Origin: an uncultured Bacilli bacterium
Lineage (GTDB): Bacteria; Bacillota_I; Bacilli_A; RFN20; DUOF01
Length of the DNA stretch: 33,527 nucleotides
Direction: 5' to 3'
Assembly: GCA_944363575.1 (NCBI GenBank)
Contig: CALVUJ010000010.1
Location: 83,817 to 117,343 of the forward strand
How positions within the stretch are numbered: position 1 is the first letter of the stretch; each line of letters begins with the position of its first letter. The position numbers were made by a program, and so were the translations under genes. Positions 2,921-33,527 of this stretch are shown in pieces. The notes beneath the pieces were generated by a model that did not search any database, was not told the DNA's origin, and saw only the letters and a list, made by a program, of their open reading frames with translations.

Positions 2921-4351
2921 ATGGATAGTTATGATATTTTAGGTGTTAGTAGTAATGCATCAAATAAGGAAATTGAAGTAGCATATGAAGATTTAAAGAA
3001 AAAGTATGATCCTTTTTTTAATACATCCATTCATGCTTATAAGAAATATAGGGAGATTTTAAGGGCTTATGAGAATATAAAAGATGAAAAGAGAAGGGAA
3101 ATGTATTCTTTAAAGGATGATGATAGAGAGGTTGTTTTAGGTAAAGAAGAGTATCTTTTATATGATTATAATGAGGTTAAAGAGGAAGTAAAGATTGATT
3201 TTAGTAAGGTTAGTGAGATAGGTAGTGTTTATTATGAAGATGTGATTGTTGAGAGAGATCTTAGTTATTTATATTATTTATTAAATTTAAAGGTTAGTGT
3301 TTGTTATGAGAAAATAGTTAAGTGTGAAGAGTGTAAAGAGTTTGTGAAGTGTCCTGTTTGTGAGGGGAAGAAAGTTGTATGGTATGAGGAGAGAATGGTT
3401 TGGTGTCCTAAATGTCATGGTAAGGGGGAAGTTAGTAGCCATTGCTTAGAGTGTGATGATAAAGGTGTTCATTTAGTTAAAGATATGGTTTCTTTTTATG
3501 TTGATAGTGATATGAAAGAGTTTAAGGGGCAAGGTAACGAGTATTTTGATGGGTTTAAGTCAAATGTTAGAGTTAGTTTTAATTTTTATGATAAAGATAA
3601 TATTAAGGTAGAGGATGATACTATTTTCATTAAATATTATTTAAATAAAAGGGAGACTAAAGAAGGGGTTAATAAAGAGTTTGTTAGTGAAGATGGGGCT
3701 TTTAAGTTAGAGGTTTCTCCGTTTGTAGAAAATGAGTATAAGAAAGAAATTGTTTTTAAAGGAAAGAAATTAGTATTTGTTTTTTACAATGATTTATATA
3801 TGGGCGAAGATAAGAAATATTATTTGTTTGTTAATAGAGATAAGGAGTTTGTGTATTTTAATGATGATTATAGTTTGGTTAGTTTGAAGAAAGATGATGA
3901 GTATTTTAGGGAAGTAAAGTTGAGTAATGAGGTTATTATTGAGGATTATGGTGAAGTAGGTAAGTATGGGGGGAAGAATGGTAATTTAGTTGTTGAGGTT
4001 AGGTATTGGAAGAAGGATTTACAGTATGTTAAGGATGTAAAAGAGATAGAGACTAGTAGAGTTTTTAATTTGTTAGGTGGTAAGGTAGGTAGTGTTTATC
4101 ATTTTGGGTTTAAGGGTAGTAACTATTTATTAAAAAGAGATGATGGTTATTATTTGTTGAGTGGTAATAGTAAGTTTAAAAGAAAGCTTAAAGATTATTT
4201 TTTGTTTAGGGTTATTGGTGTGCTTTTATGGGTTTTGATACCGTGTCTTATGTTGTTTATTCCTTATAGTTTTGCGTTTTATATTAGTTTAATAAGTAGT
4301 CTGGTTGTTTATTTTGTGATTGTTAATTTGTTAATGGAAGTGGAGGTGTAA
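2921..4351 (+). CDS. membrane-anchored DnaJ-like zinc-finger protein with degenerate J domain
   Basis: The 476-residue protein starts with a J-like domain (MDSYDILGVSSNASNKEIE, about residues 1-65), but the HPD tripeptide that stimulates Hsp70 is replaced by YDP at 29-31. Residues 135-178 carry four CxxC motifs (CEEC, CPVC, CPKC, CLEC), two of them followed by DnaJ-type glycines, matching the cysteine-rich region of type I DnaJ. A beta-rich C-terminal region follows, then two hydrophobic segments in the last 50 residues, so the protein is probably tethered to the membrane with the J and zinc domains in the cytosol. It lies 12 bases after the hypothetical gene and 2 bases before the surface-protein gene. 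Loss of HPD suggests an adaptor role and not a standard Hsp70 co-chaperone; this is inference. Confidence 0.8.
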   Translation: MDSYDILGVSSNASNKEIEVAYEDLKKKYDPFFNTSIHAYKKYREILRAYENIKDEKRREMYSLKDDDREVVLGKEEYLLYDYNEVKEEVKIDFSKVSEIGSVYYEDVIVERDLSYLYYLLNLKVSVCYEKIVKCEECKEFVKCPVCEGKKVVWYEERMVWCPKCHGKGEVSSHCLECDDKGVHLVKDMVSFYVDSDMKEFKGQGNEYFDGFKSNVRVSFNFYDKDNIKVEDDTIFIKYYLNKRETKEGVNKEFVSEDGAFKLEVSPFVENEYKKEIVFKGKKLVFVFYNDLYMGEDKKYYLFVNRDKEFVYFNDDYSLVSLKKDDEYFREVKLSNEVIIEDYGEVGKYGGKNGNLVVEVRYWKKDLQYVKDVKEIETSRVFNLLGGKVGSVYHFGFKGSNYLLKRDDGYYLLSGNSKFKRKLKDYFLFRVIGVLLWVLIPCLMLFIPYSFAFYISLISSLVVYFVIVNLLMEVEV

Positions 4352-4353
4352 GG

Positions 4354-6822
4354 ATGAGTAAGGTTAAATATGTTTTGATTGGGTGTTTAGTTTTTCTTAT
4401 ATCTTTATTTCTTTTTAATGATAGAGTAGAGGCTAAAGTTAGTGAAAACAGTTCTTTTAAAATAGAGGTTGGTAGTGATAAATTGCCTGTTTATTATTCT
4501 TTGGAGAGTGCTGTAGAAGGTGAGAGTACAACTGTTAAGGAAAGGATGCATTTTTTAGTTACTTTAACAGGGGTTAGCGATACTTCAAAAAGTTATAGGT
4601 GGACGCATCAATTGTGTTATAAAATTGTTGGTGGAGAAGAAGTGTGTGAAGTTGATGTGATGGGTAAGGACCAAGAGGGAGATAATGGTATTGATATTAC
4701 TAGTGAGGGAGTTTATTCTTATTATTTTTCAGATGATGATATGGCTTTTTATAGTGATACATTAGAGTTTGAATATATTACTTTTAAAAATAGTTTTGTT
4801 AGTTTAGAAGAAGGAAGTAGTGAGAGTTTTTCTTTAGATGATATTACTTTTTTGAGTGATGAAATTGATTATAAGTATGTTTTTGATATTAATATTAGTT
4901 ATGCAGAAAATGAAGGAAGAAAATATGTTAAAAATTATTATAGTAGTGATGATGATAAAGTGTATGTAGGGGCTACTTTTTTAAACAATATCGGGTCTAG
5001 TTTAAGTTTAGATGGAGCTCCAACATATAAGATTGTTAATGAAGTGTGTGTAGGAGATAATTTGTGCGTAAGTGAATCTTTTGATAAAGTTAATAATGAG
5101 CAGATTGATATTACCCCTTATATTGGCAATATTACCTTTTATTATTCAAGTGATAAATTATTGTATGTTAATAATGAGATTAATTATAAGTTTGCTAGTT
5201 ATAAGACAACTTTAGTGTGTTTAACTAATTGTGAAGGTAGAAGGATTAGTAGTGAAATTGTTATTAATGAAGATACTTACTATTTTGATTATACTGATCC
5301 TGTGATTGATAGTAGTAATACGAGTATACCGGTAGTGGAGGAGTATGTTAAAGATGTTGAAATAAAGATTAGTTATAATGATAGTGATAGTGGGATTGAT
5401 AGCGATTTATTATATTATTCATTAGCACAGTCTTTTTATGGTGATTCATGTGTTTGGGTAACGAATACTACGAGTAAACCATATGAAAATGGTGTGAGTT
5501 TTAAGATTGGTGAAGGGCTTAGTGGTACTTGGTGTTTTAGGTATCAAACATATGATAAGAATGGTAATTATTATGTGAGTGATTATTATGTTTATAAGTT
5601 TGATAATAGTGGACCTAGTATGAGTTTAGAGAATAGTTATGATAGTAGTAAGTATTATAATGATGTAGAGTTAAGTCCTGTTTTTAGTGATGTTTATGTG
5701 GGAGTTAAGGAAACTTATTATTTATGGAGTAGGGAGGTTATTAGTGAGAGTGATTATTATTTAGTTAAAGAGAATGGTGCTTTATATAGTGATGGTGTTA
5801 ACATGGATAGTTTAGAGGATGGTAGTTATTACTTGTATTTTTTAAGTTATGATAATTTAGATAATTATAAGTTTTATGATGTTGGTCAGTTTAATCTTGA
5901 TACGATAGGGTTAAGTAGAAGTGATATTGAGTTTAGTGTTTATGATGTTAGTGATGATACTTATAGTAGTATAGGTAAGATAGAGATTAGGGTTAGTGAA
6001 ATGGCTAATGATGAGGAGTTTAAGTGTGGCTTCTTTAATAGTAGTAAAGTGAACATTAGCGATTTAGTTTTTTCTTGTTATAATAATCAAAAGATGAGTA
6101 TTCCTACGGGATTAGAGGGAGAGTATTCGCTTTGGGTATATGTTCATGATAGGGCTAGTAACTATTCTTTATTTTCTTTAATGGATAATTTAAAGGTTGA
6201 TACAAGAGGTCCTGTTGTTAGTAGTGAGATTTTATATGATGATGATTCGTATAGATTAGTTAATGAGATTAGACTTAGTTTAGAGGATTTGAGTTCTGTT
6301 AATGTGGTTAAGTATGGGTGGTTTTTGACTTCTGTGAATGTTATTAGTAGTGATTTGGTTAATGATTATAATGAGGTTATTAATTATCCAAAAGATTTAT
6401 ATGGAGAGTATAAATTGTATATTAGAGCATTAGATAATTTAGGGAATGAGAGTTTTATTTCTTTAGATAAAGTATTTAAAATAGATACGATGAAAATTAA
6501 TATTAGTTTAGTAGGAGAAGATACGATTACTATTTTAAAAGGGCAAAATTATCGTGATTTAGGGGCATATGCGTATAAGGGTCAACTTGGTAGTACCCGT
6601 GATAGCGAAGTAACAGTTAGTGGTGAAGTTGACACCTCTAAAGCTGGTATTTATTATCTTACTTATGAAAGTGGAGAAGGAGATTTATTAGTTAAGGTTA
6701 CTCGTAAGGTTGTTGTTAAGGATGATGCATGGTTAGTAGTTACAAGTATTAGTTTATTTACTTTGGGTTTGTTATTTGTTTGTGTAAGGTTATTTTTTAG
6801 GAAAAATAAGGAGCATGTATAA
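4354..6822 (+). CDS. large surface protein with tandem Ig-like repeats and DUF5011-like domain
   Basis: The 822-residue protein begins with a signal peptide (MSKVKYVLIGCLVFLISLFL, cleavage probably near EAK) and ends with one hydrophobic anchor and a short basic tail (FFRKNKEHV), giving a type I membrane topology with nearly everything outside. From about residue 320 to 715 there are roughly four repeats of 85-95 residues. Each has a pattern like G-x-Y-x-L-Y/W-x-x-x-x-D followed by a K/N-x-D-T-x-G-P linker, typical of bacterial Ig-like modules. The last 80 residues before the anchor resemble DUF5011 (ILKGQNYRDLGAYAY, then AGIYYLTY). Several cysteine pairs could form disulfides. Start is the ATG right after the upstream stop. 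Role unknown; adhesion or envelope sensing is plausible. Confidence 0.8.
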   Translation: MSKVKYVLIGCLVFLISLFLFNDRVEAKVSENSSFKIEVGSDKLPVYYSLESAVEGESTTVKERMHFLVTLTGVSDTSKSYRWTHQLCYKIVGGEEVCEVDVMGKDQEGDNGIDITSEGVYSYYFSDDDMAFYSDTLEFEYITFKNSFVSLEEGSSESFSLDDITFLSDEIDYKYVFDINISYAENEGRKYVKNYYSSDDDKVYVGATFLNNIGSSLSLDGAPTYKIVNEVCVGDNLCVSESFDKVNNEQIDITPYIGNITFYYSSDKLLYVNNEINYKFASYKTTLVCLTNCEGRRISSEIVINEDTYYFDYTDPVIDSSNTSIPVVEEYVKDVEIKISYNDSDSGIDSDLLYYSLAQSFYGDSCVWVTNTTSKPYENGVSFKIGEGLSGTWCFRYQTYDKNGNYYVSDYYVYKFDNSGPSMSLENSYDSSKYYNDVELSPVFSDVYVGVKETYYLWSREVISESDYYLVKENGALYSDGVNMDSLEDGSYYLYFLSYDNLDNYKFYDVGQFNLDTIGLSRSDIEFSVYDVSDDTYSSIGKIEIRVSEMANDEEFKCGFFNSSKVNISDLVFSCYNNQKMSIPTGLEGEYSLWVYVHDRASNYSLFSLMDNLKVDTRGPVVSSEILYDDDSYRLVNEIRLSLEDLSSVNVVKYGWFLTSVNVISSDLVNDYNEVINYPKDLYGEYKLYIRALDNLGNESFISLDKVFKIDTMKINISLVGEDTITILKGQNYRDLGAYAYKGQLGSTRDSEVTVSGEVDTSKAGIYYLTYESGEGDLLVKVTRKVVVKDDAWLVVTSISLFTLGLLFVCVRLFFRKNKEHV

Positions 6823-8505: not shown

Positions 8506-8568
8506 AAGTTAGTGATTTTAATGAAAAAAGGCTAGTTACGTGATAATATTTTATTGGAGAGTGATAGA

Positions 8569-9762
8569 ATGTTATTATCGTTTCAAGTGGATGGATATAA
8601 GTTGTTTGATCAAAAAGTGTGTTTTTCAATGCATGCGTTAGGTAAGTTTAAGAGATTGCAAGAAAATGTTTATACTCAAAAAATAGGTAGCAAGAATTAT
8701 CATGTGTTGAAGAGTGCGGTTATATATGGGCCTAATAATTCGGGTAAGACGACATTTATTAAGGCTATAGGAGCTTTAAAGCGTATTGTAGAAGATGAGT
8801 GTATTAATGAGATTACAAAAGATAATTTGAATTTTAATTTTTTTGATAATAGAAGAAATATTAATTATGAAATAGAATTTATTAGTGAGAGTAATCATTA
8901 TGTATATGAATTATCTTTTAGTGAGAAAAATGAGATAACTAATGAAGTTTTATTTGTTAATGGGAAAAAGATTTTGGATAGATATGGAAAGAATTGTAAA
9001 GATATTAGTCAGGTTATAGAGTTGTTGGGGCATTATAAAGATAAGCTTATGGTTACTTGTTTGCCTAAAAAATATATGATTTATTATGAAGAATTTAAGA
9101 TTTTTTTTAATAAGTTATTAATCCTTCAGTATACCGAAAATAATGTTCAGCCTACTTTAGATATGTTAAATGATATAAAGTATAGTAAAGATTTTATGGA
9201 GTTAATATCGCATTCAGATACGAATATTAAAAAAATGAAAATTAATAAAAATATTGATGCAGAAACTTTTTCTTATGTTCCTAAAGATGTAGCAGAGTAT
9301 TTGAAGTTAGAGTCTACTTATGAAAAGAATGGGAGGAGTTTTACTTTTCCTTCTATTTTAGTTGATTCAGTGGGTACTAAAAAGTTAATAGTGTATGCTA
9401 GTTATATATTGAAGGCTTTAAGAGAAAAAATGACTTTAGTTGTGGATGAGTTGGATTCTAGTTGGCATACTTTACTTACGCGTAATATTTTTGCTTTGTT
9501 TAATAGTGTTAGTAATTCTAGGGCACAGATTATTGCTTCTTGTCATGATTTACTTCTTTTAGATGATGAGCATATGTTTAGGAGAGATCAAATATGGTTT
9601 ACTTATAAAGATAAGCAAGGGACTTATTTTTATAGTTTAGCTGATTTTAAGTTGGATGCTAGTGAGAAGCAAGGGATGGTTATGGCTAATTATTTAAAGG
9701 GTAAATATGGGGCTTTACCATATCCAATGATGGGAGAAGTTTTTGATGATGAGAGTAAGTAA
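8569..9762 (+). CDS. AAA_21-type ATPase of an AbiL/RloA-like defense pair
   Basis: The 397-residue protein starts MLLSFQVDGYKLF, the usual opening of AAA_21/OLD-like ATPases (MLLSFxVxNFxSF). Walker A is GPNNSGKT at about residues 54-61, Walker B is TLVVDELDSS near 300, and IIASCHDLLLL near 340 is the sensor or H-loop of ABC-type ATPases. The open frame extends upstream to a TTG at 8554, but the ATG at 8569 is seven bases after GGAGAG and fits the family. The next gene overlaps it by 17 bases. Paired with an RloB-like TOPRIM protein, it matches the AbiLi/RloA partner, expected to sense infection and control the toxin-like partner. PARIS (AriA/AriB) has the same logic but a larger DUF4435 partner. 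Confidence 0.8.
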   Translation: MLLSFQVDGYKLFDQKVCFSMHALGKFKRLQENVYTQKIGSKNYHVLKSAVIYGPNNSGKTTFIKAIGALKRIVEDECINEITKDNLNFNFFDNRRNINYEIEFISESNHYVYELSFSEKNEITNEVLFVNGKKILDRYGKNCKDISQVIELLGHYKDKLMVTCLPKKYMIYYEEFKIFFNKLLILQYTENNVQPTLDMLNDIKYSKDFMELISHSDTNIKKMKINKNIDAETFSYVPKDVAEYLKLESTYEKNGRSFTFPSILVDSVGTKKLIVYASYILKALREKMTLVVDELDSSWHTLLTRNIFALFNSVSNSRAQIIASCHDLLLLDDEHMFRRDQIWFTYKDKQGTYFYSLADFKLDASEKQGMVMANYLKGKYGALPYPMMGEVFDDESK

Positions 9763-10330
9763 TATTAGAAGAAATAATTTGAATTATCAAAAAGAAGATC
9801 TTTATTTAGTAGTAGAAGGAGAGGTTGATGAAATTTTTTTAAATAAGATTATTTCTTTTATGTCTACGAAGTATAATGTTAGGGTTAGGGTTGCTAATGG
9901 TAATGGTAATATTCCAATACATGTAAATATTTTAAAGAAGATTTATAGTTATTCTAAGATTGTAGTGTTGTATGATTTAGATGCTAGTATTAATAAAGAA
10001 GATTTAAAGAGATTTTTAAAGAATAAGCAAGTTATTTTAAAAGATGAAGATATCTTTTTTGTTAATCCTTGTATAGAATATTTAATTATTTTAACTAAGG
10101 AAGTTAATTTTAATAAGTTTAGAAATAAAAGAGATTATCAAGAGTTATTTAAAAAATATTTTATGGTTAATGATTATGCTGGGCATATTCCTCAGGTTGA
10201 AGAGATTGTGGAGCAACTTACGATTACTGATTATAATAATTTTGTTGATAATTTAAAAAAAGTTTCTAGTAATGATAATGTTTTGCCATCTACGAATTTT
10301 TTAAAGTTTGTGGAAAAAATAAAAAAATAG
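9746..10330 (+). CDS. RloB/AbiLii-like TOPRIM nuclease partner
   Basis: The protein has 194 residues. YLVVEGEVDEIFLNKI supplies the TOPRIM glutamate, IVVLYDLDAS the acidic DxD, and FFVNPCIEYLIIL matches the 'NPcfElWlll' signature of RloB. These are the expected features of a small TOPRIM RNase or DNase toxin. The frame extends to a TTG at 9743; ATG 9746, eight bases after GGAGA inside the ATPase gene, is chosen, with ATG 9749 as the alternative. Translational coupling to the ATPase is typical of AbiL/RloAB and PARIS operons. Length (about 195) favours RloB over DUF4435. Its AGT-rich, G-biased codon use matches the host, so the pair is not a recent arrival. Confidence 0.72.
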   Translation: MMRVSNIRRNNLNYQKEDLYLVVEGEVDEIFLNKIISFMSTKYNVRVRVANGNGNIPIHVNILKKIYSYSKIVVLYDLDASINKEDLKRFLKNKQVILKDEDIFFVNPCIEYLIILTKEVNFNKFRNKRDYQELFKKYFMVNDYAGHIPQVEEIVEQLTITDYNNFVDNLKKVSSNDNVLPSTNFLKFVEKIKK

Positions 10331-28978: not shown

Positions 28979-29341
28979 GGGGCCGTTTTGGTTTCGACAG
29001 GTATTTGAGGGTAAAGATGGCAGTCGGGTGATTACGTTACAATCGCAAGCCAGATAAATGGCAACTATAACTATTCATACGCATATTAGTCTTGGACTTT
29101 AATCTTCAATAGCGAAGATGTGCGCGTTACCTAAGGTTTTTTCTTGGCTTTAGTCATAACGTTATATACAAGGAATAAGATTTGATGATTTCTATAAGTC
29201 AAATACGAAAATATTATAGGATAGTTATCTAATGGATGGTCTTTGTCCTAATTGGATAATGAACAATAAGTAAAGACTAAACTGTAGATATCTTTATTTG
29301 ACGGTATTTGGACAGGGGTTCGATTCCCCTCGGTTCCACCA
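28979..29341 (+). ncRNA. ssrA: transfer-messenger RNA (tmRNA)
   Basis: The 363-base RNA starts GGGGCCGTTTTGGTTTCGACAG and ends with a T-arm (GGGGTTCGATTCCCCT) and CGGTTCCACCA, so GGGGCCG pairs with CGGTTCC as acceptor stem and CCA is encoded. The most likely tag frame resumes at GCA 29045 and stops at TAG 29087, giving ASQINGNYNYSYAY. That ending differs from the usual ALAA/AVAA and recalls Mycoplasma tags ending in YAFA. The frame is inferred: the other two frames close after shorter or less tag-like peptides. rnr and smpB, which act with it, lie just upstream. Confidence 0.95.
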
Positions 29342-29440: not shown

Positions 29441-29482
29441 TTGAATTTTATTATATAAGTCAAATATAATTTGTGATATAAT
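29441..29482 (+). promoter_or_regulatory. promoter(s) of the small-TM/DUF4393 operon
   Basis: Two overlapping options are seen: TTGAAT (29441-29446) with TATAAT (29465-29470) 18 bases on, the same spacing and hexamers as the ssrA promoter, and an extended -10 TGATATAAT (29474-29482). Either would give a short leader for the ATG at 29500. Confidence 0.5.
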
Positions 29483-29499
29483 TGCAATGAGGTGGAAGT

Positions 29500-29658
29500 A
29501 TGGAAGAGTGGATGATTGATTTGATCATAGGTTTAGGTAATTTAATTGTAGGTTTTGTAGGAGGTTTTTTAACAAAAACTTATTCAGTTAAAATAAAGCA
29601 ACAAGTTAAAGGTAACAATAATAAACAAAGTGTAGGAGAGATTAACAATGGTAAATAG
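29500..29658 (+). CDS. 52-residue single-span membrane protein with Q/N/G-rich tail
   Basis: A short gene. AGGTGG lies four bases before ATG 29500, and the frame runs 52 codons to TAG 29656-29658. Residues 5-24 (MIDLIIGLGNLIVGFVGGFL) form one hydrophobic, glycine-rich span. The tail, TKTYSVKIKQQVKGNNNKQ and then SVGEINNGK, is basic and rich in Q, N and G. Its stop overlaps the start of the DUF4393 gene by 11 bases, implying coupled translation and a joint function. QQVKGNNNKQ in the tail resembles QKLKGDGNTQ at the start of that neighbour. I know of no named family; membrane tether or adaptor is inference. Confidence 0.7.
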   Translation: MEEWMIDLIIGLGNLIVGFVGGFLTKTYSVKIKQQVKGNNNKQSVGEINNGK

Positions 29659-30394
29659 TATTGAACAAAAGTTAAAGGGTGATGGAAATACACAAAATAA
29701 CATAACAGTTAACGGTAATGTAATTATGGGAGTCAGTGAAGAAAAAGTGCTAGAAATGATAAATGTGTATTGTTATACATGTAAAGATCAAATTATAGAA
29801 ATTGTTAGAGAAGCTATAGAAAACGTAAAAGATGAAAACAGAGTTGCTCCTGATAAGAGAATTTTTGTTCCTGCAATACAGAATTTATCTTATAGTATGG
29901 ATGATACGGTCATCAAAGAAACTTATAAAAAGCTTTTAAAATCTTCAATGGACGTTAATCAATCAGGTAAAGTTCATCCTTCTTTTCTTAGTATAATAAA
30001 TCAGCTTAATTCTGATGAAGTTAAAATATTAAATTTATTTCCTACAGAAGTTTCGATAAACAAGCCATTAATAAGTATGAGGGCTAAAATTGAAGGAAAA
30101 AAAGGTGATGGTTTTTTGATAGTTTCAAATTTTACTGATATTGGTTATGGTGTGTGTGATAATCCACACAACATTAGTGGATATATAGACAATTTGGAAA
30201 GATTAAAACTAATTGAGATACCTCCATATGGGACTTTGATAGATAAAGAAATTTATAATCCATTAAAAAATCATCCAGCAATCCAAATTATAGTTGAAGA
30301 AAATTCTAGTCAACATCTTGTTACAGAATTTGATGAACGATATTTTAGACTAACACAATTTGGAAGACAATTTTTGGAATGCTGCGTTAAATAA
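29648..30394 (+). CDS. DUF4393/Abi-alpha family protein
   Basis: A 248-residue protein with the DUF4393 (Abi_alpha) pattern: RIFVPAIQNLSYSMDDTVIK, YKKLLKSSMDVNQSG, KVHPSFLSIINQLNSDEVKIL, then a C-terminal winged-helix-like part with GYIDNLERLKLIEIPPYGTL and FRLTQFGRQFLECC. The family is linked to abortive infection, but its mechanism is not established. The first 30 residues hold an N/G/Q-rich segment (EQKLKGDGNTQNNITVNGNV) shared in style with the small membrane protein upstream. AGGAGAG lies eight bases before the ATG, inside that gene. A gap of 77 bases separates it from the GHKL gene. Confidence 0.82.
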   Translation: MVNSIEQKLKGDGNTQNNITVNGNVIMGVSEEKVLEMINVYCYTCKDQIIEIVREAIENVKDENRVAPDKRIFVPAIQNLSYSMDDTVIKETYKKLLKSSMDVNQSGKVHPSFLSIINQLNSDEVKILNLFPTEVSINKPLISMRAKIEGKKGDGFLIVSNFTDIGYGVCDNPHNISGYIDNLERLKLIEIPPYGTLIDKEIYNPLKNHPAIQIIVEENSSQHLVTEFDERYFRLTQFGRQFLECCVK

Positions 30395-30471
30395 GGCTTC
30401 TTTAGCTTTTCAAATGATAACTTTTTGATGATAAATAACATTTAAAATATTATGTTAGGGGAGTGGTAAAT

Positions 30472-32379
30472 GTGATTAAAGCTTATGTAGAAGACATTAT
30501 AAGAAATTTAGGTAAAGATGTTAAATTTATACAACCTATTTATGAGGCAATAACCAATTCTTTAGAGGCTAATGCTACTAATATCGAAATAGTGTTGCAT
30601 CCTGATAATGCTTTGTTTGGTGAAGGAAAACTTGATGGGTTTGAAATAATAGATAATGGTGAAGAGTTTACTAAAAAAAATATAGATTCATTTTGTAGAT
30701 TGTGGTCAGATAATAAATTATCTATCGGGTGCAAAGGAAGCGGTAGATTTACATGGTTAGCGGTATTTGATAAAGTAAAAATAGAAAGTCTAATTAAAGA
30801 CACGGGTGAACTAGTAAATATAGATTTTGATAAAAATTTTGATGTAGTATCTTCTATAAATGTATCTGATACAGAAGTCAGTGAAAATAAAACAAAGATT
30901 GTGTTTTCTAATGTTTCTAACAGATATTTTGGATATAAAGGCAATGATTTAAGAATTCTTGCTGATCCACACGAAATATCAAGAAAGATATTGCAATATT
31001 TGTTAGTGAAACTTTTTTTATTGAAGAAAAGAAACAAACAATTCAAAATTACAGTAAGAAAGGAACAGGATTTAGCTGTTATTGATTATAATTCTATTCC
31101 TGATTTGGAAAAAATAGAATTTAGTATGAATAGTAAGATAAACGATGAGCAGTACCCTTTTGAAGGATATTATATTTTTAATAAAGATAACAGTAACAAT
31201 AAAGAATTATGCTTATGCGCTAATTTAAGATCAACAAAAACATATTATAATGATCAGACAGGAATTGCTGGCATTATACCAGGAAGAGATTCAGTTTTGA
31301 TGTTAGTCTGTTCTGATTATTTAGATGATAAAGATAATGATTCAAGAAACAATTTAATTGATTTAGTTGATTTGGATGAACCAAATTTAATGTATCCTTT
31401 AACTCTTAAAGAAATATTTTATGAATCAAAGAGACAATTGGAATTGTTGATTAAAAATAAATATCCTATGATTGAAGATGATAATATTAGAGCTGTAGAA
31501 GAAGCGATAAATGATAGGCCATACTTGAAAAAGTATATAAACAATAATAAAGATGTATTGAAGTCTAAAGAAAAATTAATTTCTACAGCCTTAAAACAAT
31601 TCAATGATGAGAAAGAAAAGGTAAAAAGAAATTTTGATAAATTGCTTGAAGAGAAAAAAATAGATTCTTCTGTTTTTGGTAGAACAATTAATGATATAAG
31701 TGAGATGGCGTATTATGAATTAGGCGAATATATTTTATATAGAGAGACTATAATAAATGCGTTAGAAAAATCAACAAAAAATATACAAACAAAAGAAAAG
31801 TTTATACATGATGTTTTTATGCCGATGAAAACAGATTCATTTCATGCAGATAAAGACAAACACTATTTAACAAATTTATGGTTGTTGGATGACAAGTTTA
31901 TGACATATTCTTATGCGGCATCAGATAAAACGGTTAAACAAATAATAGAAAAGATAAAAGAGAAAAATGAAAAAAAATATAAACAATCCAACAGACCAGA
32001 CTTATCGATATTTTTCAATAGAGAGGATTCGATTAAGGATTTATTAATGGTTGAGTTCAAAGGACCGAACGCAGATTTAGATGAAAAAAATAAGTCATTG
32101 ACCGAGTTGCCAACGGATATAAGAATTATAAGGGATAACATAGAAAATTTAGCTACAGTTTGGGGATATATCATAACATCAATAGATAAAGATTTTGCTT
32201 ATTCAATTGAGGCTGATGGCAGATTTAATAATTTATTTAGTACACAGGGAGAGAGTAAATTATACTACCATTATAACAAAACGCTGGATGCACACATTTA
32301 TATAATTGATTTAGATATAATTTCTAGTGATGCAAAAGCACGAAATGCTACATTCTTAGATATTTTAAAGAAAAAGTAA
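30472..32379 (+). CDS. GHKL ATPase with C-terminal PD-(D/E)XK-like nuclease domain
   Basis: A 635-residue protein. The N-terminal Bergerat-fold ATPase has the N box with E25 and N29 (EAITNSLEANA), G1 IIDNGEEF at 59-66, and G2 GCKGSGRFTWLAVFD at 86-100, as in MutL, MORC and Hsp90. A helical middle (about 330-430) precedes a conserved stretch NLWLLDDKFMTYSYAASDK, and then a restriction-endonuclease-like site: D510 in PDLSIFF and E528-F-K530 in LMVEFKGP. GTG 30472 is eight bases after AGGGGAG; the frame upstream to 30463 falls in that site. Related MutL/MORC-like ATPases linked to restriction are described (Iyer and colleagues, 2008). An ATP-gated DNA clamp that cuts is expected; specificity is unknown. 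Confidence 0.8.
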   Translation: MIKAYVEDIIRNLGKDVKFIQPIYEAITNSLEANATNIEIVLHPDNALFGEGKLDGFEIIDNGEEFTKKNIDSFCRLWSDNKLSIGCKGSGRFTWLAVFDKVKIESLIKDTGELVNIDFDKNFDVVSSINVSDTEVSENKTKIVFSNVSNRYFGYKGNDLRILADPHEISRKILQYLLVKLFLLKKRNKQFKITVRKEQDLAVIDYNSIPDLEKIEFSMNSKINDEQYPFEGYYIFNKDNSNNKELCLCANLRSTKTYYNDQTGIAGIIPGRDSVLMLVCSDYLDDKDNDSRNNLIDLVDLDEPNLMYPLTLKEIFYESKRQLELLIKNKYPMIEDDNIRAVEEAINDRPYLKKYINNNKDVLKSKEKLISTALKQFNDEKEKVKRNFDKLLEEKKIDSSVFGRTINDISEMAYYELGEYILYRETIINALEKSTKNIQTKEKFIHDVFMPMKTDSFHADKDKHYLTNLWLLDDKFMTYSYAASDKTVKQIIEKIKEKNEKKYKQSNRPDLSIFFNREDSIKDLLMVEFKGPNADLDEKNKSLTELPTDIRIIRDNIENLATVWGYIITSIDKDFAYSIEADGRFNNLFSTQGESKLYYHYNKTLDAHIYIIDLDIISSDAKARNATFLDILKKK

Positions 32380-32390
32380 TACACTAACTG

Positions 32391-32423
32391 AGTCTGTCAG
32401 GATATATCTTGATGGACTTTTTT
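32391..32423 (+). terminator. intrinsic terminator after the GHKL gene
   Basis: AGTCTGTCA pairs with TGATGGACT (nine pairs, two of them G-T), extended by a few pairs in the GGATATATCT loop, and a T-run follows. It sits between convergent genes and its T-tract overlaps the stop of the opposing endonuclease gene. Confidence 0.8.
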
Positions 32424-33527
32424 ATATAAAAGATTCTTTTATTATTTTTAAAATATAACTTTTATCTAACCAGAAGCAATATTTTGTATATTTAGTTAAA
32501 CCAGTGAATTTGTCTTGCACTGGTAAATCATATCCTTTTCCACTTTTATTTATCCCTGTTTGATCGTGTGGTCTAACATGACATACATGATTTAGTTTGC
32601 TCGTAGGTAAATTGGTTTGATAATACCCTTTTGAATCTATTCCCTTAACGATATTTCCAGATGATATGGTTTCAATTGTTTTTTTCCAAGTTTCTTTTAC
32701 TTGATTATCTAATACTAGAAGTGGCATATTCCAAAACTTGATTTTGTCAAAGTAATATATTCCATTTTTCTTTTTGAATACAACAAACATATATTTGGTT
32801 GTGTTGAATTTTTCTCTTAAAGTGCTAGTTTCCCATTTTTCTTTTACAATTTCTGTGTATTTAAAAGTAGGGAAAGACATGTGCTCTTTTATTGTGCCAT
32901 TTTCTTCTATTCTAACAGTTTTTAATTCTAAGTTAGCCTTTTGGAATTCATCAGTTTTGTTTATGTTTCCATTAATGCCAAGCATTGATGCTACCAGAAT
33001 GTTGAATCTATTTTTCATTTTTGAACTATTTTTTATATTGAATTTATCAAATAATTCATTTTCAGACATTCCATAATATTGACTAAGTCTAGAGTCCATA
33101 ATCATTTCAAAAGTAGAATTTTTAAGTTCTTCAAATGAGACAATAGACGCACATTTTTCTCCTATAAAGTTTCTTTTTATGATTGTATTCATATAAGATT
33201 GCTTTAAGCAGTATGCTCGTTGCTTAGCAAGCTTATCTGATGCGGGTTGTTGTCTGTAACTACTAGCAGAATCAGCACCTTTAGTGCAAGCACCTAAATA
33301 CATAGTGTCAGCTTCCGACAATGTATCTGCAAGTCCGTTATTTATTTTGTCACTAATTTTTTTCCAGTCTTGTTTAATTATTTCTAAATCTTCGCCAGAA
33401 AAAGTATGTAAAATGGATTCAATCATGCGGAAATTAAAATCATTTCTATCTTCATATAAGTAGAACATTAAAAGCAAAGAGGCATTCTTTTTCCAGAAAG
33501 AACTCTCTTCAAAAGGAATATTGTATT
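32422..33527 (-). CDS. Sau3AI/MutH-family type II restriction endonuclease (5' end outside window)
   Basis: About 367 codons are visible and the frame stays open to the window edge (upstream residues IPFEESSFWKKNASLLLMFY are in frame), so the apparent start at 33477 is not real. Recognised segments are EADTMYLGACTKGAD, AKQRAYCLKQSYMNTII, then GINGNINKTDEFQKANLELK with KEHMSFPTFKYTEI, which match the Sau3AI/LlaKR2I family with its MutH-like modules. Family members cut at GATC. Probably about 120 N-terminal residues, with the main catalytic centre, are missing. The visible module seems to keep a D...ExK arrangement (DEFQKANLELK). A partner methyltransferase is expected outside the window. It faces against the + strand genes and has non-host codon use. 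Confidence 0.87.
   Translation of the reverse strand, partial: YNIPFEESSFWKKNASLLLMFYLYEDRNDFNFRMIESILHTFSGEDLEIIKQDWKKISDKINNGLADTLSEADTMYLGACTKGADSASSYRQQPASDKLAKQRAYCLKQSYMNTIIKRNFIGEKCASIVSFEELKNSTFEMIMDSRLSQYYGMSENELFDKFNIKNSSKMKNRFNILVASMLGINGNINKTDEFQKANLELKTVRIEENGTIKEHMSFPTFKYTEIVKEKWETSTLREKFNTTKYMFVVFKKKNGIYYFDKIKFWNMPLLVLDNQVKETWKKTIETISSGNIVKGIDSKGYYQTNLPTSKLNHVCHVRPHDQTGINKSGKGYDLPVQDKFTGLTKYTKYCFWLDKSYILKIIKESFI

Follow-up and report, generated by a model that had tools for sequence, protein, structure and literature searches.

The Abi-alpha protein of E. faecalis (EF2833) is encoded by a single gene and has been shown experimentally to act in abortive infection (Abi), with premature lysis (PMC6356687). 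Its discoverers suggested that it disturbs holin timing or lowers the membrane potential, action at the membrane being put forward as speculation only (PMC6356687). Other Abi proteins, PdpSau and AbiP, are membrane-anchored (PMC10127798). In the bacterial amyloid signaling motif (BASS) systems, a membrane-type Bell protein bears the motif C-terminally and an NLR bears it N-terminally, the two genes being adjacent or overlapping, and the membrane protein with the C-terminal motif has been proposed to be the killer in these Bell/NLR pairs (PMC7889193). The BASS3 peptide VDLRDAKGVQVGDGNVQINRF (ORT49035.1) aggregates like amyloid (PMC8086366).

The locus described here encodes a membrane mini-protein (A) and a soluble Abi_alpha-family protein (B) that share a short motif. 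The combination of a soluble Abi protein with a membrane anchor that has the same motif, which a previous sequence-only reading had put forward as an undescribed arrangement, is recurrent, and no description of it was found in the literature searched.

The A/B gene pair and its neighborhood

The window, that is, the whole stretch of DNA analyzed (33,527 nucleotides from an uncultured Bacilli bacterium), contains two ORFs that overlap by 11 nt on the forward strand. ORF A (29500-29658) encodes a 52-residue single-span membrane mini-protein (MEEWMIDLIIGLGNLIVGFVGGFLTKTYSVKIKQQVKGNNNKQSVGEINNGK), identified by hydropathy, helix prediction and homologs. ORF B (29648-30394) encodes a 248-residue protein that starts with MVNSIEQKLKGDGNTQNNITVNGNVIMG, has the motif-bearing N-terminus IEQKLKGDGNTQN and lacks the hydrophobic N-terminal extension usual in its family. 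The assignment of B to Abi_alpha comes from matches to Pfam PF14337 (Abi_alpha, formerly DUF4393; E=5.3e-48, 164 bits against a cut-off of 29) and PADLOC PDC-S47 (E=1.2e-43), together with an AlphaFold2 (AF2) model; the Pfam domain covers residues 47-246 (29786-30385, forward strand). A putative ribosome-binding site of B, AGGAGAG, was read from the sequence within A (29634-29640), and a candidate site for A, GAGGTGG, at 29489-29495, both on the forward strand. On the same strand, a consensus scan placed a promoter-like site, TTGAAT-18-TATAAT, 5' of A (29441-29470; 10/12 matches), which is weak evidence because 12 sites of this kind occur in the region around A, where shuffling gives a mean of 7.9 (sd 2.6).

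The ssrA gene (tmRNA 28979-29341) is located just upstream of the pair; a role of ssrA as an island attachment repeat was considered and not retained, the gene being present in a single copy in the assembly and the contig stopping at the window end. On the other side, B is adjoined by a gene for a GHKL-type ATPase (30463-32379), which is followed on the opposite strand by a gene for a Sau3AI-family endonuclease (32422-33477; NF040973, E=1e-111). Within this segment (30463-33477), the C-terminus of the ATPase weakly matches VRR-NUC, and no methylase was seen near the two genes before the contig end, which coincides with the window end. Elsewhere in the window (8554-10330), an AAA ATPase (GPNNSGKTT) is followed by a small protein starting with YLVVEGEVDEIFL, a pair that we take to resemble the RloA/RloB- or OLD-type defense pairs.

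Predicted topology and structure

A single segment of A, residues 6-24 (29515-29571, forward strand; Kyte-Doolittle window mean 2.01), exceeds the hydropathy cut-off, and the protein has no Pfam match. The net charge is -2 before and +5 after this transmembrane (TM) segment, so the C-terminal tail is predicted to be cytosolic; the same prediction holds for the A tails of all nine pairs discussed below, since a net positive charge immediately follows the last TM segment in 9/9. The structure prediction for A consists of a helix (residues 3-28) followed by low-confidence coil. For B, modeled by AlphaFold2 with 46 relatives, the overall pLDDT is 88, whereas residues 1-28 including the motif stay below 50 and are predicted to be disordered, with neither a helical nor a beta fold for the monomeric motif. 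The earlier claim that both shared segments sit in flexible tails is thus borne out at the level of prediction, in the coil of A after residue 28 and in residues 1-28 of B. The only hit of the B fold in a PDB search was a weak match to 3h35 (the uncharacterized ABO_0056). The maximum 19-residue hydropathy of B is 0.75, compared to a median of 1.06 in canonical Abi_alpha proteins. Judged from profile matches and hydropathy, B is a split variant of Abi_alpha, with the motif at its start and the canonical hydrophobic extension missing.

The motif shared by A and B

The motif copy of A, QQVKGNNNKQS (29599-29631), was delineated by pattern match, matrix and alignment, and that of B, QKLKGDGNTQN (29666-29698), by pattern match, matrix, alignment and AF2, both on the forward strand. 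The sequence-only reading had produced a gap-free alignment of these segments in which Q, K, G, N and Q are the identical residues, and both this alignment and the two ORFs are confirmed; at the DNA level, the copies are identical at 21/33 positions. Searched as a DNA pattern, Q-x-h-K-G-x-x-N-x-Q occurs twice in the 1.13-Mb genome, both times here and at a distance of 67 nt. A single match was found in 391 further genomes from the phylum, and the reversed control gave 0 matches; because the two window copies themselves served to define the pattern, only their adjacency is informative. A 13-column matrix built from unrelated phage proteins ranks the window segments 1 and 2 among the 12,319 13-mers of window ORFs, a ranking that is partly circular because these phage proteins were found with patterns modeled on the same segments. 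The alignment of the A tail with the B N-terminus is modest when taken alone (p=0.017, composition-preserving shuffle), and relatives were therefore needed. Their evidence, given below, makes the match convincing: by recurrence, it is correct and more than chance.

Split and canonical Abi_alpha loci

About 120 Abi_alpha loci were examined in total, including 80 found by scanning 84,980 species genomes, 46 from viral contigs and a few additional ones from plasmids, phages and the phylum and order of the window. Other searches were uninformative: scanning genomes with only the window protein as the query found no relative, tblastn searches of phages returned no matches to ORF A or to short peptides of the motif, and a viral search with a pattern for QVGIQNNY yielded chance matches only. 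Nearly all Abi_alpha proteins have an N-terminal extension without the motif that contains a moderately hydrophobic segment (e.g. GKALGTVAKTVNVALAPLSALVWGYD) rather than a clear TM helix, as reflected in the above median of 1.06.

Five further B proteins of this family have a short, motif-bearing N-terminus. They come from Spirochaetales (L087, B 46% identical to that of the window), Clostridia (L088, where the B gene is broken by a stop or frameshift, and the split-type pair L119), Oscillospiraceae (the split-type pair L133) and the same order as the window (the split-type pair L220). All five are coupled to a directly upstream gene for a single-span protein of 48-73 residues that carries the motif in its tail and is a homolog of window A. 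Among non-redundant canonical loci, by comparison, any TM mini-ORF lies upstream in 3/115 and one with the motif in 0/115 (Fisher p=4e-6 for upstream TM mini-ORFs, the comparison group being the four split loci in that set). Homologs with freely varying tails and no co-variation between the two genes had been named in the sequence-only reading as grounds for refuting the motif idea; this test was run, and the idea was not refuted. An alignment of eight sequences was dropped because these are too diverse.

Locus L005 (1153-2178) encodes a weakly Abi_alpha-like protein with an N-terminal fusion of two TM helices plus a KQTVKSNSGTITN stretch, and this could be the A/B pair in one-gene form; with an Abi_alpha match under the family cut-off, this candidate natural fusion is not leaned on here.

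A second effector family

A profile search in the order of the window led to L221, where a gene for a TIR protein (289-1101) lies upstream of a pair (1304-2307) on the reverse strand (reverse-complement coordinates), the pair encoding a TM mini-protein of 66 residues and a protein of 268 residues. The 268-residue protein has the same N-terminal module followed by a different C-terminal domain, LPO_1073/Vpar_1526 (NF045477, E=3e-42), for which no published function was found in the literature searched; in the sample of the window's phylum, this family gave one sub-threshold match with a broken frame. In L119 and L221, the alignable part of the B proteins comprises the motif and the helices after it (31% over 147 columns, E=2e-17), and the TM partners of the two loci show 49% identity across 43 residues; the N-terminal motif module appears to have been swapped between Abi_alpha and LPO_1073 effectors.

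Locus L223 is a P2-like plasmid prophage of E. coli (NZ_CP148400.1) with a pair at 3743-4855, in which the first gene encodes a two-TM protein of 81 residues containing SQSVGDNSTAVQARGD and the second an LPO_1073 protein containing KQQIGNNSYAIQAGNN. The pair, present in 6/5,426 E. coli genomes, is flanked by the genes for the replication endonuclease and the portal protein, an interval of P2 that has been described as an anti-phage hotspot (PMC9122126), and is a candidate anti-phage system in E. coli. A related pair of a TM mini-protein and an LPO_1073 protein (L225, 2750-3858) is located 3' of a replication-type gene in another P2-like prophage. The neighbors vary from locus to locus and often are defense genes (TIR in L221, Pycsar-type TIR in L133), so the pair looks self-contained.

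Phage gene pairs with the motif

Many proteins with Q-x-[IV]-x-G-[DN]-[GN]-N-x-Q are encoded in viral contigs, some of the matches being due to chance. Six pairs of adjacent phage genes have a common motif (L015, L016, L043, L051, L075 and L086), and the motif is carried by 12/80 neighbors of phage motif ORFs versus 1/2,520 ORFs in loci not chosen for the motif. The partner is a TM protein in three of these six pairs (L016, L075 and L086); other motif partners are XRE regulators and ORF6C-type proteins.

Several further observations concern phage proteins. Adjacent soluble and membrane genes with the motif or a variant in both are located at L016:6844-7990, L075:6299-7448, L086:2579-3655 and L085:8353-9375, and those of L075, L085 and L086 adjoin an XRE-type gene. 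A 61-residue single-span protein ending in ITQGIEGNNNSQEINK (L054:1150-1335, reverse strand) has a C-terminal motif, with no motif-bearing neighbor seen. Proteins of ~96-111 residues in which the motif is present twice, at an 18-residue distance (GDGNIQ...GNNNIQIGA), were found in L020, L021, L023, L026, L028, L030, L033, L035, L036, L044, L050, L055 and L081.

Motif matching within pairs

The motif drifts between loci, and both copies of one locus drift together. The tail and N-terminus variants are KGNKNIQ/KGNDNVQ in L088, GNQVGIQNNYG/GTQVGVQNNYG in L119, TTQIGIQ/TTQIAVQ in L133 and GSTGIQAGG/GSTAIQAQG in L225. In L119, L221, L223 and L225, matches to the strict motif are poor for both the tail and the N-terminus, and these variants were accordingly grouped by position and pair similarity. 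When partners are permuted among the nine pairs, 23/362,880 permutations reach the summed alignment score of the cognate pairs (p=6e-5, a value partly due to the ancestry that A and B share), and among the six Abi_alpha pairs alone 4/720 do. Window A places its own B at rank 4 of 9, three B proteins of other loci scoring higher. Given this rank and the contribution of co-inheritance, the matching is support for, not proof of, pair-specific recognition, and within-pair specificity is best described as a trend. The view of the sequence-only reading that the shared segment is one motif, as opposed to a freely varying low-complexity linker, holds up, given its recurrence in homologous pairs and the matching variants within them.

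Proposed function of the pair and rival explanations

We consider it likely that A and B constitute a two-gene abortive-infection unit in which A is an in-trans membrane anchor, B is the Abi effector and a homotypic motif joins them. B would be an Abi-alpha effector whose membrane-associating N-terminal segment has been replaced by a disordered Q/G/N motif, and A would supply the membrane part in trans, by means of one TM helix and a cytosolic tail with the same motif. Tail-to-tail homotypic association would dock and cluster B (or cluster A through B) at the inner membrane, and phage infection would result in premature lysis or loss of membrane integrity, as for the single-gene Abi-alpha of E. 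faecalis. Direct binding between A and B, killing at the membrane and the phage trigger are the parts of this scheme that we infer. The motif probably acts by homotypic assembly and probably docks the defense protein B onto the membrane. The least certain part of the model is the nature of the assembly; a cross-beta (BASS/RHIM-like) polymer is a real possibility, if somewhat short of probable.

Instead of forming an amyloid, the motif could be a short beta-structured oligomerization tag (e.g. a turn of a trimeric beta-helix) that holds A and B in a defined small complex, which would be compatible with docking. Such a tag would suit the tandem arrangement of copies at an 18-residue distance in Mu-like phage proteins, the XRE regulators with coiled coils among the partners and the weak similarity of one relative to the Gp5_C beta-needle (E=0.012, below the cut-off), but the motif resembles a published amyloid-forming BASS3 peptide and the monomeric form has no predicted helical or beta fold, which leaves the tag rather doubtful. 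A mere low-complexity linker or coincidence is very improbable: although both segments lie in Q/N/G-rich, predicted disordered tails and the window pair alone yields p=0.017, the motif recurs in every motif-bearing Abi_alpha found, in the LPO_1073 pairs and in phage gene pairs, and the pattern is rare in the genomes searched.

The roles of the two proteins could also be distributed differently. If B were the sensor or trigger and A the executioner, phage-sensing B would assemble and cluster the A helices, and the membrane would be permeabilized. This reading is consistent with a polarity like that of the Bell/NLR pairs (PMC7889193) and with the association of A-type proteins with two unrelated partner families; however, A is hardly more than a helix and a tail, and canonical Abi-alpha is active as a single gene without A, so the B domain is probably the effector and an executioner role of A appears unlikely. 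Even lower is the probability we assign to A as an inhibitor or antitoxin-like partner that silences B at the membrane before infection: a regulator could well be small and tightly coupled, but the size and single TM segment suit an anchor equally well, and canonical Abi-alpha needs no partner.

Comparison with known systems

Seen as an anchor and its docked effector, the pair suggests a role for unannotated TM mini-ORFs 5' of some Abi genes, and such defense units can be missed when the small first gene is overlooked. Whether signaling amyloids function in bacterial pathways independent of NLRs has been raised as a question (PMC7889193), which the window pair and the E. coli version in the P2 hotspot make directly testable. 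More tentatively, a widespread NLR-free homotypic (BASS3-like amyloid) motif could connect dedicated membrane mini-proteins with phage regulators and with interchangeable cytosolic phage-defense effectors (Abi-alpha, LPO_1073 and others), forming minimal two-gene membrane signalosomes.

With regard to the motif itself, the RHIM-like look noted in the sequence-only reading stands in part. The similarity to BASS3/RHIM-like sequences is real in that the GDGNxQ[IV] core appears to be common to the motif and the BASS3 peptide ORT49035.1, which the phage-motif matrix scores at 15.5 (p=1e-4 versus its own shuffles; AEB69175.1 is not matched). The motif differs from BASS3 in having Q four residues before G rather than two, and the strict RHIM tetrad (I/V)Q(I/V/L)G is absent in the window copies (KQSVG, TQNNI), whereas phage relatives do have IQIG or IQVG.

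Compared to Abi-alpha (PF14337; EF2833; PDC-S47), the window pair has the conserved C-terminal domain in B and a defense or prophage context, but canonical systems consist of one gene with a hydrophobic N-terminal extension, in place of which the window has the motif and a separate TM mini-protein. PdpSau and AbiP likewise combine a membrane helix with a cytosolic Abi domain; in these proteins, however, the helix is in cis, the domain is another one and there is no shared motif. The LPO_1073/Vpar_1526 (NF045477) pairs of L221, L223 and L225 have the same layout, a TM mini-protein and an N-terminal motif, and differ in a C-terminal domain unrelated to Abi_alpha. As in the Bell/NLR pairs of BASS, the A and B genes overlap and the motif is at the C-terminus of the membrane protein and the N-terminus of the soluble partner. 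Unlike those pairs, A has no Bell domain, with its 52 residues forming one helix and a tail, and B is an Abi_alpha protein, there being no NLR (NACHT/NB-ARC plus repeats) and the neighbors encoding a GHKL-type ATPase and a Sau3AI-family endonuclease. The pair therefore looks BASS-like in layout, outside the Bell/NLR family, and resembles a minimal, NLR-free variant of the Bell/NLR arrangement.
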